Source: Azospirillum brasilense
GTDB lineage: Bacteria; Pseudomonadota; Alphaproteobacteria; Azospirillales; Azospirillaceae
Length of the DNA: 64,000 bases
Assembly (NCBI RefSeq): GCF_003349955.1
Contig: NZ_QLKQ01000032.1
Location: forward strand, 1 to 64,000
Direction: 5' to 3'
The notes beneath the pieces are model-generated. The model searched no databases. It saw nothing but the letters and a program-made list of their open reading frames with translations, and was not told the origin of the DNA. A program made the translations under genes and the position numbers. Below, piece by piece: positions 1,854 through 50,379 of this stretch; position 1 is the first letter of the stretch, and each line of letters opens with the position of its first letter.

Positions 1854-2468
1854 TTAGACACGGGCGATACCACTCACACGCAGGATGGTTCCGGTGGGGT
1901 CGGTGCGGCTGTCGAAGCGCTCGACCCGCATCTTCCAATATTTGGTGGTATCGGTCAATTCGTCCGCCACATTTTGCCCCTTGGGAAACAGTGCCGCACC
2001 CCGGTCCTGGACAAAGGGATGGGCCCAGCTCAGCAGGTCGTTCAGCGGCGCGAGAGCGCGGGCCGTCACCACGTCGGCGGCGATCGGCGGCACCGCCTCG
2101 ATCCGCTTGTTGTGCACGGTGACCGACGCTCCGGCGACCCGCGCCGCCTCGCGCAGGAAGGCGCATTTGCGGGAGTCGCTTTCCACCAGATGCACCTCCG
2201 GCACGCCCAGGATGGCGAGGACGAGGCCGGGGAAGCCGGCCCCGCTGCCGAGATCGACCAGCACCCGAGTGCCGTCGGGCAGCAGCGGGAACAGCTGGGC
2301 GGAGTCGAGGAAGTGGCGGCGCCAGGCGTCGGGCAGAGTGGAGGGGCCGACGAGGTTGATCTTCGGCTGCCACTTGCGCAGCGTTGCCTCGTAGGCGGCA
2401 AGGCGGTCCAGCGTTTCACGTGAAACACCGGTCTCCGCCTGGAAGGCCGCGGCATCGAACAGGCTCAT
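1854..2468 (-). CDS. rsmG: 16S rRNA (guanine-527-N7) methyltransferase RsmG
   Basis: RsmG (GidB) uses SAM to methylate G527 of 16S rRNA. The 204-residue protein has the SAM-binding motif VDLGSGAGFPG at about 71-81 and an NLVG motif at 38-41. The start codon overlaps the mnmG stop by one base (TGATG). Near the N-terminus the peptide VSRET (about residues 15-19) is encoded by the parS core at 2413-2426, so the centromere site is embedded in the coding sequence. Confidence 0.96.
   Translation of the reverse strand: MSLFDAAAFQAETGVSRETLDRLAAYEATLRKWQPKINLVGPSTLPDAWRRHFLDSAQLFPLLPDGTRVLVDLGSGAGFPGLVLAILGVPEVHLVESDSRKCAFLREAARVAGASVTVHNKRIEAVPPIAADVVTARALAPLNDLLSWAHPFVQDRGAALFPKGQNVADELTDTTKYWKMRVERFDSRTDPTGTILRVSGIARV
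2413..2426. other. parS: parS site inside rsmG
   Basis: The sequence GTTTCACGTGAAAC is a perfect 14-base palindrome. The flanking bases give 15 of 16 matches to the consensus TGTTTCACGTGAAACA. It lies 1.4 kb from parB and is the expected ParB loading site. It is read in rsmG as VSRET. Confidence 0.93.
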
Positions 2469-4394: not shown

Positions 4395-4410
4395 TGTTTC
4401 ACGTGAAACA
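4395..4410. other. parS: Perfect parS site between mnmE and mnmG
   Basis: TGTTTCACGTGAAACA matches the 16-base parS consensus at every position. It is the only intergenic full-consensus site in the window and the strongest candidate for primary ParB nucleation. Confidence 0.96.
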
Positions 4411-11521: not shown

Positions 11522-12361
11522 TCAACCCTGGAGAACGGCCGCCTTCAGCCCCTCGGTCACCTCCGGCTCCCGGCCGAACCAGGCGGCGAAGCCGGGGCGG
11601 GCCTGATGGAGCAGCATGCCGACGCCGTCCACCACCCGGTTGCCGCGCGCCTGCGCGGCGGTCAGAAGCGGGGTCATCAGGGGCGTGTAGACGATGTCGG
11701 TGACGACGGCCGAACCGGGCAGGGCGCGCAAGTCCAGCTCAAGCGGCGGTTGGCCCGCCATGCCCTGGGTCGTCGTGTTCACCACCAGAGTTGCGCCTTC
11801 GAGAAGCGTTTCACGTGAAACCCAATCGGCGGTCTCGATGGCGCCTCCAATATCCGCCGCCAGTTCGTCGGCCCGCGCCCGCGTGCGGTTGACCAGCCAG
11901 ACCCGCGGAGCACCCTCGTCGAGGAGAGAGGCGACCACGGCCCGCGCCGCGCCGCCGGCCCCGATGACCAGCGCCGGCCCGTCCGATGCCTTCCAGCCCG
12001 GGACACCGCTTCTCAGGTTCTCGATGAAACCGAAGCCATCGGTGTTGCGGCCCTCCAGCGTCCCGTCCTCGCCGACCACGATGGTGTTGACAGCACCCAT
12101 CCGCCTGGCGGTGGCGTCCAGCCGATCGACCGTGCGGTAGGCGGCCTCCTTGTGCGGCACCGTGACGTTGCAACCGCGGAAGCCGAGCGCGGGCAGGGCG
12201 CGGATGGCCTGCTCGATGCGGTCGGGCGGCACCGCCAGCGGCACATAGGCGCCGTCGATGCCGTATTGGTCCAGCCAATAGCCGTGCAGCCGGGGCGAGC
12301 GCGAATGGCCGATCGGCCAGCCCATCACACCGGCCAGCTTCGCCTTGCCGCTGATCGTCAT
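11522..12361 (-). CDS. aroE: Shikimate dehydrogenase
   Basis: AroE reduces 3-dehydroshikimate with NADPH in aromatic amino acid synthesis. The 279-residue protein has GWPIGHSRSP near residues 14-23, the catalytic lysine in NVTVPHK (K71), and a Rossmann GAGGAARAV. The start overlaps the maf stop (ATGA). The peptide VSRET in its middle is encoded by the parS core at 11808-11821. Confidence 0.96.
   Translation of the reverse strand: MTISGKAKLAGVMGWPIGHSRSPRLHGYWLDQYGIDGAYVPLAVPPDRIEQAIRALPALGFRGCNVTVPHKEAAYRTVDRLDATARRMGAVNTIVVGEDGTLEGRNTDGFGFIENLRSGVPGWKASDGPALVIGAGGAARAVVASLLDEGAPRVWLVNRTRARADELAADIGGAIETADWVSRETLLEGATLVVNTTTQGMAGQPPLELDLRALPGSAVVTDIVYTPLMTPLLTAAQARGNRVVDGVGMLLHQARPGFAAWFGREPEVTEGLKAAVLQG
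11808..11821. other. parS: parS site inside aroE
   Basis: GTTTCACGTGAAAC, the exact 14-base parS core, lies within aroE and is read as VSRET. It matches 14 of 16 bases of the longer consensus. At 2.0 kb from the predicted origin it is the parS site closest to it. Confidence 0.9.
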
Positions 12362-12966
12362 TCCGCAATCACCCCATGCACCCGCAGGAACCCGAGCAGC
12401 GGCAGCAGCGGCAGCCCGAGGATCGTGAAGAAGTCGCCGTCCACCCGGTGGAAGAGCTGCGCGCCCAAGCCTTCGAGGTGATAGGCGCCGACCGACCCCA
12501 ACACGTCGTCGCCCGCCGCGTTGAGGTAGGATTCCAGAAAGGCGTCGCTGAAGGGGCGCATGGTCAGGCGGGCGCGGTCCACATGGTGCCACAGCCGCTC
12601 GCCGTCGCGGATGACCACGGCGCAGCTGACCAGCCGGTGCGCCTTGCCGCGCAGGTCCTGCAGCTGGGCTCGCGCAGCGTCGCGATCGGCCGGCTTGTCG
12701 AACCAGCGGCCCTCGCACTCCAGCATCTGGTCGGCGCCGATCACCAGGGCGCCCGGATGCTTGCGGGTGACGCGCTGCGCCTTCAGCTCGGCCAAGGCTT
12801 CGGCCACATCCTCGACCGGGGCACCCTCGGCGCGGGCGGCCAGCTTGATCTCCTCCTCGTCCACCGCGGCGGGGGCGAGGGTGACGCGCACCCCGGCGCG
12901 CTCCAGCATCTCCGCCCGGGTGCGGGAACCGGAGGCGAGGACGACGGTGGGAATCGCTCCGCTCAC
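12358..12966 (-). CDS. maf: Maf-family nucleoside triphosphate pyrophosphatase
   Basis: Maf-type house-cleaning pyrophosphatases hydrolyse non-canonical or modified NTPs. The 202-residue protein opens with the family motif VVLASGSRTRAEML and has VIGADQMLECEGRWFDKP. The start is GTG 12966, overlapping the ppsR stop (GTGA), and the stop overlaps the aroE ATG. An upstream extension of the frame is only open because it is antisense-like GC-rich sequence. Confidence 0.94.
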   Translation of the reverse strand: MSGAIPTVVLASGSRTRAEMLERAGVRVTLAPAAVDEEEIKLAARAEGAPVEDVAEALAELKAQRVTRKHPGALVIGADQMLECEGRWFDKPADRDAARAQLQDLRGKAHRLVSCAVVIRDGERLWHHVDRARLTMRPFSDAFLESYLNAAGDDVLGSVGAYHLEGLGAQLFHRVDGDFFTILGLPLLPLLGFLRVHGVIAE

Positions 12967-13811
12967 GTCAGGGGCCCCTCGGGGACGACGCCGGGCAGGC
13001 CGCCGGTCTGGCGGCGGGCGAGCAGCATCATGATCTCCGCCGCCGTCTCCTCGATGGAGCGGCGCGACACGTCGATCACCGGCCAGCCGCGCCGGGTGAA
13101 CATGCGCCGGGCGTCGGTGACCTCGGCGCGCACCACCTCCGGATCGACGTAGGTCGAGGACTCGTTCTGGTTCAGCAGCTTCAGCCGGTTGCGGCGGATC
13201 TGCACCAGACGGTCCGGGTCCTTGGTCAGGCCGACGACCAGCGGCCGGGTCAGCTTCTCGATCTCCGGCGGCATCGGGCAACCGGGGACGATCGGGATGT
13301 TCGCCGCCTTGATGCCACGGTTCGCCAGATAGATGCAGGTCGGCGTCTTCGACGTGCGCGACACGCCCATCAGGATCACGTCGGCCTCGTGCAGATCCCA
13401 GCTCGACTGGCCGTCGTCGTGCGCCAGCGCGAAGTCCATCGCGTCCATGCGCCCGAAATACTCGGCGTCCAAGGCGTGCTGGCGGCCGGGCTGGCGCTGC
13501 GATTCCACGCCGAGGAAGGCGGCCAGCGCGTTGATCAACGGATCGAGCACCGGGATGCAGGGGACCTGCACCTCGCGGCAGAAGTCCTGAAGGCGGCGGC
13601 GCAGCTTCTCGTCCACCAGCGTGAACATGACGAGGCCGCGATTCTCCTGGACGCCCTCCAGAACCATGTCGAGCTGACGCTCGGTCCGCACGAGATTCCA
13701 GAAATGCTCGACCGGGCGAACATCGTCGAACTGGATGACGCAGGCGCGGGCGACGCTGTTGATCGTCTCGCCGGTCGCGTCCGACACAAGATGCAGGTGG
13801 AACTGTCTCAT
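12963..13811 (-). CDS. Pyruvate, phosphate dikinase regulatory protein (PPSR, DUF299)
   Basis: This bifunctional kinase/pyrophosphorylase family regulates PPDK or PEP synthase. The 282-residue protein starts MRQFHLHLVSDATGETI and carries the P-loop-like GVSRTSKT at about 149-156. ATG 13811 matches the family start, although the frame is open to 14255 across the predicted origin. Its position on one side of oriC, opposite hemE, is the classic alphaproteobacterial arrangement (the RP001 homologue). Confidence 0.94.
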   Translation of the reverse strand: MRQFHLHLVSDATGETINSVARACVIQFDDVRPVEHFWNLVRTERQLDMVLEGVQENRGLVMFTLVDEKLRRRLQDFCREVQVPCIPVLDPLINALAAFLGVESQRQPGRQHALDAEYFGRMDAMDFALAHDDGQSSWDLHEADVILMGVSRTSKTPTCIYLANRGIKAANIPIVPGCPMPPEIEKLTRPLVVGLTKDPDRLVQIRRNRLKLLNQNESSTYVDPEVVRAEVTDARRMFTRRGWPVIDVSRRSIEETAAEIMMLLARRQTGGLPGVVPEGPLT

Positions 13812-14226
13812 CCGTCCCCAACGTGTTGTGGAGAACCCGTCCGAATCTGTGGACAACGGGGATCTCCTGGATTCTGTCCCTCGGGGCGGGACTCGTCGCC
13901 CCCGCTGGCGCCCCCTTCGGGACAATCCGCGCGCCCTCTCCGGAACATGGGTACAATGACTCCCGCGGACCATGTTATCCACGGGATTCCCAGGCTTCCC
14001 GGTATAGCATTTCCGCCGTTTCCGGCGAAAGCGTCCGGAGTCGTCCACAGAATCCGATTTTCGTCCACAGCGCGCCGTCCGGCCTGTGGACGATTCGGCG
14101 CAAAGCGGGGATTCCCGTTTTCCACAGGCACCCACCACCCCTTCTTCCTTTCTCTCTTTAAAAAGAATACTGAGTAGAGGGGAGACAACCCGCAGACCCG
14201 ATTCACTCATAGGGGAACGATCCGCC
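13812..14226. other. oriC: Predicted chromosomal origin of replication (oriC)
   Basis: The gap between divergent ppsR and hemE has DnaA-box-like 9-mers (consensus TTATNCACA). They are TTATCCACG at 13975-13983, TTTTCCACA at 14118-14126, TTGTCCACA (minus) at 13848-13856, and three copies of TCGTCCACA at 14041-14049, 14061-14069 and 14085-14093 (minus). A pyrimidine- then A-rich stretch at 14141-14171, next to hemE, could be the unwinding element. No paired TTAA-N7-TTAA (CtrA-type) site was seen. In Caulobacter and Rickettsia oriC lies in this same hemE/RP001 interval. Confidence 0.88.
14141..14171. other. Candidate DNA-unwinding element
   Basis: A run of T/C ending in CTTTAAAAAGAATAC is one of the few low-GC stretches in the first 20 kb. 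It lies just beyond the last DnaA-like box, on the hemE side. The assignment is by composition and position only. Confidence 0.45.
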
Positions 14227-15285
14227 GTGTCCGAGGCCGTGACCAAGATTGCCAAGCCGATGCTCGCCGCCCTCGCCGGCGAGGTGCGTCCGCGCCCGCC
14301 CTTCTGGCTGATGCGCCAGGCCGGCCGTTACCTGCCGGAATATCGGGAATTGCGCGCCAAGGCCGGCAGCTTCCTGGACATGTGCTACAACCCCGACCAC
14401 GCGGTGGAGGTAACCCTGCAACCGCTGCGCCGCTACGACATGGACGCAGCGATTCTGTTCTCCGACATCCTGGTGGTGCCGCACGCCCTGGGCCAGCCGC
14501 TGGCCTTCCTGGAGGGCGAGGGGCCGAAACTGGACCCTGTGAGAAGCGTGGAAGACCTCAAGCGCCTGTCGCGCGATCGCTTCCACGAACGGCTGGAGCC
14601 GGTCTACGAGACCGTCCGCCGCCTCTCCAGCGCGATTCCGGCGCACACCACGCTGATCGGCTTTGCAGGGGCGCCCTGGACCATCGCCTGCTACATGGTC
14701 GAAGGGGCCGGGTCCAAGGAGTACGCGCACGTCAAGCGCTGGGCCTACGGCGATCCCGCCGGATTCGGCGCGCTGATGGATCTGCTGGTCGAGGTGACCG
14801 CCGATTATCTGTGCACCCAGATCGAGGCCGGGGCCGAGGTGGTGCAGCTGTTCGACAGCTGGGCGGGCGTCCTGCCGGCCGGCGAATTCCGCCGCTGGGT
14901 GATCGAGCCGACGCGGCGGATCGTCGATCTCATCAAGGCGCGCCACCCCGCGATTCCGGTCATCGGTTTCCCGCGCGGTGCGGGCCTCTCCTATGAGGAC
15001 TACGTGGTGGGCAGTGGAGTGGATGCGGTCGGGCTCGACACCACCGTCCCGGTGGCTTGGGCGGCCGGGAATCTGCAATCCAAGTTGCCGGTGCAGGGCA
15101 ACCTCGACCCGATCATGCTCGCCGCCGGTGGCGAGGCCCTGCGCACCGCTGCGTCGGAGATTCTGGAGACGCTCGCCGGCAAGCCCTTCGTCTTCAACCT
15201 GGGGCACGGCGTGATCCAGACCACCCCGCCGGACCACGTGGCGGAACTGGCCCGTCTGATCAAGGACTGGCCGAACCGGGGCTGA
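14227..15285 (+). CDS. hemE: Uroporphyrinogen decarboxylase
   Basis: HemE converts uroporphyrinogen III to coproporphyrinogen III in haem synthesis. The 352-residue protein has the signature [16 protein letters not shown] (about 25-40) and GFAGAPWT, plus IGFPRGAG later. The start is GTG 14227, preceded by AGGGGAAC. No ATG start fits the family N-terminus. hemJ follows after 50 bases, probably in the same transcript. The promoter must lie inside the predicted oriC. Confidence 0.96.
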
Positions 15286-50363: not shown

Positions 50364-50379
50364 TGTTTCCCGTGAAACG
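50364..50379. other. Degenerate parS-like site after nth
   Basis: TGTTTCCCGTGAAACG matches parS at 14 of 16 bases, and at 13 of 14 core bases. It is intergenic, about 36 kb from the predicted oriC and 46 kb from the parS at 4395. It could be a weak ParB site. Confidence 0.4.

Follow-up and report, generated by a model that had tools for sequence, protein, structure and literature searches.

Where does replication of the main chromosome begin in Azospirillum, and what times its start? The question is raised by a 415-bp gap between the divergent genes ppsR and hemE of Azospirillum brasilense. The gap lies in the 64,000-nucleotide stretch of DNA that was analysed (the window), which is the first part of contig 108 of a 7.14-Mb assembly of 181 contigs. 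The Azospirillum chromosome has been stated to have an oriC (PMC3899980, in extract), and the main text of an earlier Azospirillum genome paper (PMC3245306) is without the terms origin of replication, oriC, DnaA, GC skew or hemE. No title in the literature searched, in which subscription journals were thinly covered, concerned a mapped Azospirillum oriC or GANTC overlapping DnaA boxes. Databases of predicted origins may already list the ppsR-hemE gap. New here are two observations on GANTC, the sequence methylated by the cell-cycle enzyme CcrM: it is overlapped by two of the three TCGTCCACA copies in the gap, and at 13985 and 14038 it is present in all 27 aligned sequences although its middle base varies. 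The sequence evidence points to the gap as the place where DnaA starts replication of the main chromosome, with a probability of about 0.93.

The DnaA-type boxes between ppsR and hemE

The genes on either side of the gap were identified by profile matches as hemE and ppsR (COG1806) in divergent orientation, the pair of neighbours that characterizes a class of alphaproteobacterial origins, and matches to rho and coaE adjoin the hemE gap in the window. The hemE protein was 99% identical to its counterpart in A. brasilense BR 11650. Because hemE and COG1806 flank both the Caulobacter origin Cori and the predicted origin of Rickettsia prowazekii (PMC1914354, in extract), the original prediction was right in naming the flanks as those of the Caulobacter and Rickettsia origins. 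The gap is also richer in A/T than its surroundings, with 39% A/T (61% GC) vs. approximately 30% A/T across the window. Conservation was assessed in an alignment of 27 rows, the window and 26 Azospirillum loci, many of them close kin. Locus L029, which is from another genus and does not align, was excluded; L271 is probably the same contig as L029. The features of the gap and its flanks are as follows.

12963..13811, minus strand: ppsR (COG1806/DUF299, kinase-pyrophosphorylase), PF03618, E 1.4e-96
13812..14226, no strand: predicted chromosomal oriC, the divergent ppsR-hemE intergenic gap of 415 bp, with a box cluster conserved in 27 aligned rows
13827..13835, minus strand: DnaA-type box TTCTCCACA, invariant in 27/27 rows
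13848..13856, minus strand: DnaA-type box TTGTCCACA, TCCACA core kept in 27/27 rows
13975..13989, plus strand: box TTATCCACG and a GANTC (GATTC, 13985-13989) one base past the box; box invariant in 27/27 rows, GANTC in 27/27
14003..14013, no strand: conserved TATAGCATTTC block, invariant in 27/27 rows
14038..14049, plus strand: composite GAGTCGTCCACA, in which GANTC overlaps box TCGTCCACA (14041-14049) by two bases; GANTC in 27/27 rows, TC[G/A]TCCACA in 27/27
14061..14069, plus strand: clade-specific box TCGTCCACA, exact in 8/27 rows, TCCACA core in 10/27
14085..14096, minus strand: second composite GAATCGTCCACA (box TCGTCCACA, 14085-14093); TCCACA core in 27/27 rows, GANTC in 14/27
14118..14126, plus strand: box TTTTCCACA, facing the A/T-rich tract; consensus-type TTATCCACA in 16/27 rows
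14137..14188, no strand: A/T-rich candidate unwinding region, which holds the invariant CTTCCTTTC (14144-14152)
14227..15285, plus strand: hemE, uroporphyrinogen decarboxylase, PF01208, E 2e-119

Six DnaA-type boxes matching TNNTCCACA were found in the gap, or seven boxes if TTATCCACG is included. This agrees with the earlier count of at least six DnaA-box-like 9-mers, three of them the same variant, TCGTCCACA (14041 plus, 14061 plus and 14085 minus). The number expected in 415 bp was 0.035 (Poisson P 2e-12), and none of 5000 dinucleotide shuffles of the gap reached six (maximum 2). Genome-wide, TNNTCCACA occurred 597 times vs. 384 times for a reversed-pattern control, and the six occurrences in the window outside the gap were each solitary within 415 bp. 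The gap holds the only group of TTNTCCACA in the 7.14 Mb, with three of the 67 copies in the genome; no other pair lies 500 bp or less apart.

The boxes were better conserved than the rest of the alignment. Mean identity of the box columns was 0.93 vs. 0.78 elsewhere (P 0.001 for random placement, 27 rows), and the TCCAC core of six of the seven boxes was retained in all 27 rows; the boxes at 13827 and 13975 were invariant and those at 13848, 14041, 14085 and 14118 retained TCCACA throughout. Invariant blocks of at least 8 bases in or near the gap were the box at 13827, GTTATCCACGGGA (13974), TATAGCATTTC (14003) and CTTCCTTTC (14144). The idea that the repeated TCGTCCACA is a lineage-specific, putatively weak box held in part: every one of the 27 rows had TC[G/A]TCCACA at 14041, and 14 had it at 14085, where it overlaps GANTC, but the copy at 14061, exact in 8 rows and with its core in 10, is specific to a clade.

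The 40-base windows richest in A/T fell between 14137 and 14188, with 26 A/T each in a gap of 61% GC, confirming the T/A-rich stretch noted beside hemE. A scan of the gap with the sigma-70 consensus gave no good match, and the best match in the gap to the IHF consensus had 2 mismatches. A DnaA-trio motif, weak on inspection by eye, is not claimed. The arrangement suggests a series of events in which DnaA would bind the same six boxes each time, some on one strand and some on the other, and the consensus-like box at 14118 would direct it to the A/T-rich tract at 14137-14188, where the strands would open beside hemE.

GANTC sites at the boxes

GANTC occurred 10 times in the gap, vs. 0.56 predicted from the rest of the window (P 5e-10). 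Shuffles of the gap had a mean of 2.7 and a maximum of 9, and 0 of 5000 reached 10. Eight of the sites were present in 7 to 26 of the 27 rows and two, at 13985 and 14038, in every row. The middle base was T (12 rows) or C (15 rows) at 13985 and G (11), A (13) or T (3) at 14038. Five windows in the alignment consisted of two invariant columns, one variable column and two invariant columns, and these two GANTC accounted for two of them (binomial P 1e-4 to 6e-3 by base rate, uncorrected for the relatedness of the rows). Since the C at position 2 of TCGTCCACA is the last base of the overlapping GANTC, a CcrM site accounts for the variant at two of the three places where it occurs.

The association of box and GANTC was followed in a second genus set, overlapping the first, of 30 loci, of which 29 were readable (L262 is without upstream sequence). 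The plus-strand composite GANTC[N]TCCACA was present in 28 of the 29, the exception being L258 (genome G076), which carries TTATCCACGGGATTC; TTATCCACGGGANTC was likewise present in 28, with L251 the exception. A genome search gave hits in 42 Azospirillum genomes and in 37 from other genera, and upstream DNA was read for 34 (L262, with none, included) and 16 of these, respectively. Twenty further loci comprised 4 diverged congeners and 16 loci from 12 other genera of the family. The plus-strand composite was found in three of the diverged congeners (missing in G061) and any composite in 2 of the 16 loci from other genera, and strict TTATCCACGGGANTC was found in none of the 20. TTATCC[AC]C followed by GANTC was detected in 8 of the 20 (2 of the 4 congeners and 6 of the 16 others, the latter in four genera), five genera in all, and the spacer was exactly two bases in all eight, as in the window, where the pattern allowed one to four. 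The composite occurs 8 times in the 7.14-Mb genome, six of them outside the gap (reversed-pattern control, 0), so it does not make an argument from genome-wide rarity, and the case rests on conservation.

One composite outside the gap is paired with another box. At C114:20258-20281 (L232:1759-1782), the GANTC composite TCATCCACA and the box TTATCCACA lie three bases apart with TTATCCCC close by, an arrangement that looks like a piece of the pattern in oriC.

The genome encodes GcrA and a CcrM orthologue. The latter is a 365-aa open frame on contig C35 with CcrM as its closest relative of solved structure (6pbd, matched over residues 10-361, E 5e-154) and with predicted GANTC activity. It has a catalytic domain and a C-terminal RAMA domain, with PF18755 above cut-off; as a control, PF18755 matched in 1 of 14 genomes, that of Caulobacter. 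CcrM would set methyl-adenines beside and inside the boxes, since two boxes overlap GANTC and a third has GANTC at a fixed distance; the overlap is observed, and the methylation and its use are predicted. The position of the boxes on or beside CcrM sites suggests a way of timing replication. DnaA assembly that depends on methylation could limit re-initiation, the role that CtrA has in Caulobacter, and CcrM might thereby take the place of CtrA in gating DnaA. The more specific proposal, that the origin boxes of Azospirillum are built onto CcrM sites (GANTC[G/A]TCCACA and TTATCC[AC]C-N2-GANTC) and that hemimethylation directly alters DnaA assembly, is possible but doubtful.

A slightly better than even chance is given to another explanation, in which the origin is real and the GANTC are bystanders that serve CcrM/GcrA control of the ppsR and hemE promoters or reflect intergenic enrichment, with TCGTCCACA a product of drift in a high-GC genome. 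Most alphaproteobacterial chromosomes are enriched in GANTC between their genes (PMC8116508, in extract), two of the ten sites alone were kept in all rows, and the six extra composite copies elsewhere in the genome also fit a bystander role. GANTC sites are reported in the Caulobacter origin, and replication starts normally in Caulobacter lacking ccrM (PMC3973325, in extract). In Agrobacterium, the repABC origin ori2 responds to CcrM and ori1 does not (PMC11514494, in extract), a difference that argues against CcrM acting directly on DnaA origins in general. Two patterns speak against bystanders: both fully conserved GANTC overlap or directly neighbour a DnaA box, with variation at the free base only, and the spacing between GANTC and the TTATCC[AC]C box is identical in five genera.

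The TATAGCATTTC block is possibly a CcrM/GcrA-type promoter within the origin. TATA[AG]CAT was found in 5 of the 20 further loci (1 of the 4 diverged congeners and loci of two other genera), and TATAGCATT was absent from loci L029-L084 except for the two Azospirillum loci among them. TATA[AG]CATT directly follows a GANTC in two other genera of the family (4 loci).

parS sites, dnaA and the identity of the replicon

The whole 7.14-Mb genome contained five sites with at most one mismatch to GTTTCACGTGAAAC, the parS consensus. All five were on the window's contig and three were exact. The fifth, with one mismatch, is at 67740 of the contig; the other four lie in the window.

2413..2426, no strand: parS-like site GTTTCACGTGAAAC, exact
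4396..4409, no strand: parS-like site GTTTCACGTGAAAC, exact
11808..11821, no strand: parS-like site GTTTCACGTGAAAC, exact, approximately 2 kb from the gap
50365..50378, no strand: parS-like site, one mismatch

Exact sites were present in all 45 genus genomes searched, three in 43 and two in 2. The matches listed gave parS positions for 26 genomes (one in part), 24 of them with a hemE position; the other 19 genomes contributed a count only. For 23 of the 24 genomes, the parS sites among the matches listed shared a contig with hemE and were within 14 kb of it in the direction of ppsR. In the 24th (G057), parS was at 2.5-12 kb of contig C1 with hemE at the opposite end, a layout that would fit a circular record beginning near the gap. 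Of 26 Azospirillum loci, 25 had a parS-like site approximately 2.4-2.6 kb upstream of hemE. The nearby parS that marks the origin class is present here, and ParB bound to the sites approximately 2-12 kb off on the ppsR side would separate the new origins. Together with the box cluster, the neighbouring genes and the conserved cores, the parS sites near hemE support a chromosomal oriC between ppsR and hemE, as originally predicted, and among the independent lines of evidence parS is the strongest.

The single full-length dnaA was on another contig (C131) and had no box cluster, with three scattered NNNTCCACA in the surrounding 4.5 kb. In the relative TSO35-2, dnaA was on the hemE contig, approximately 0.39 Mb away, and the distance is probably approximately 0.1 Mb in A. 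canadense and 0.24 Mb in A. oryzae, for which contig identity was taken from numbering.

DnaA also acts as a transcription regulator, and the boxes could belong to a DnaA-controlled promoter region of hemE and ppsR, with replication starting elsewhere, for example near dnaA. Divergent promoters must sit in the gap, and DnaA-box groups do occur elsewhere, such as upstream of an mraZ-like gene in TSO35-2. This reading is nevertheless very improbable: the genome has no second TTNTCCACA group, the dnaA locus is without a box cluster, all of the genome's parS-like sites are on the window contig (and near hemE in 23 of 24 genomes among the matches listed), and the neighbours are those of Cori (PMC1914354, in extract).

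GC skew, which the original prediction named as a check, was calculated for 2.78 of the 3.07 Mb (91%) of the hemE contig of TSO35-2 and gave no usable signal. The cumulative skew had no V shape and its range was inside the block-flip null (P 0.16). As an origin by GC skew, hemE ranked 71 of 154 positions on this contig, on which plasmid-type features are also present; a k-mer scan preferred other boundaries, and the skew of KOPS-like motifs did not favour hemE. The test is weak because the contig also carries the plasmid-type features. Three exact parS were at 53.9, 61.4 and 63.4 kb of the contig, with hemE at 51.3 kb. It is extremely improbable that the replicon started from this gap is a chromid (secondary replicon) instead of the main chromosome, for although over half of Azospirillum DNA is on extrachromosomal replicons (PMC13342612 and PMC3899980, both in extract) and the skew of the TSO35-2 contig gives no signal for hemE, the genes hemE, rho and coaE lie beside the gap, the biggest replicon alone has a typical oriC in the strains studied while the others have repABC or parAB (PMC3899980, in extract), and dnaA is on the hemE contig in TSO35-2 (0.39 Mb) and probably in two other relatives (0.1 and 0.24 Mb).

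The TSO35-2 contig had several other clusters of sites. Two further DnaA-box groups, equally dense by one pattern, were at 692 kb and 2.152 Mb. The 692-kb cluster (L126:12080-12520) has 5 NNNTCCACA in approximately 116 bp, one of them a GANTC composite. Similar DNA was found in 25 of 45 Azospirillum genomes, with no match in the window's genome, and was off the hemE contig in 21 of the 23 genomes with a hemE position (the exceptions being TSO35-2 and G077); the cluster may serve to titrate DnaA or may belong to the origin of a chromid. The 2.152-Mb group (L199:11865-12148) includes a pair of oppositely oriented TTATCCACA separated by 2 bases, and by eye is upstream of mraZ- and rsmH-like open frames (dcw cluster), where DnaA may control cell-division genes. 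Genes similar to parA and parB and iterons were seen by eye at approximately 1.207-1.210 Mb. At 1.209 Mb (L152:9277-9700), 9 GANTC in 415 bp, the densest in the fetched part of the contig, sit among TGAACTTTGGTGACG repeats beside the ParA/ParB-like frames (by eye), as in a plasmid-type origin. GANTC density was rejected as a universal mark of origins, with 3 GANTC in the TSO35-2 gap and the densest spot on its contig at this plasmid-type origin. Because of the ParA/ParB-like genes and iterons, and because DNA like the 692-kb cluster is off the hemE contig in most genomes, the contig may be a fusion, mixed or a mis-join.

Comparison with known origins

The gap is a member of the known hemE-COG1806 class of origins. 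It resembles Caulobacter Cori in its flanking genes and several DnaA boxes (PMC1914354, in extract) and in having GANTC in the origin (PMC3973325, in extract). The CtrA site TTAA-N7-TTAA was not found in the gap, where the best match had 3 mismatches, in line with the earlier remark that no paired CtrA site is visible, and the gap is therefore not a CtrA-controlled origin of the Cori type. In Caulobacter, as here, parS is a few kb from the origin. Cori has weak boxes, including G-boxes with a T-to-G change that are on or near CtrA sites (PMC4468827, in extract), whereas two of the Azospirillum boxes have C at position 2, overlap GANTC and have no CtrA site. CtrA sites are not universal in the class, as one Wolbachia strain is reported to be without any (PMC1914354, in extract). 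The gap shares hemE and COG1806 flanks with the predicted Rickettsia prowazekii origin, but predictions in that class used DnaA, CtrA and IHF sites (PMC1914354, in extract) and the Azospirillum gap is without a CtrA site or a good IHF site.

Methylation sites are part of other origins as well. In E. coli oriC, adenine-methylation sites are mixed with DnaA sites (Dam/SeqA); the Azospirillum gap likewise has methylation and DnaA sites, but with CcrM/GANTC instead of Dam/GATC. The repABC origins are rich in GANTC (PMC6090056, in extract), and Agrobacterium ori2 is, like the gap, an alphaproteobacterial origin, with timing that is CcrM-dependent there (PMC11514494, in extract). It differs in being RepC-driven, with control via repC and gcrA expression and not via DnaA boxes.

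The predicted origin gives an exact position for the start of replication in a genus widely used to promote plant growth. In it, the question whether methylation by CcrM can have a direct effect on a DnaA-dependent origin in alphaproteobacteria has a test case. In Caulobacter, where tested, CtrA acts at the origin, whereas the Azospirillum origin has no CtrA sites and conserved methylation sites abut its boxes. If the proposed role of methylation is true, Azospirillum would have CcrM-based origin licensing in place of CtrA, convergent with the Dam/SeqA system of E. coli.
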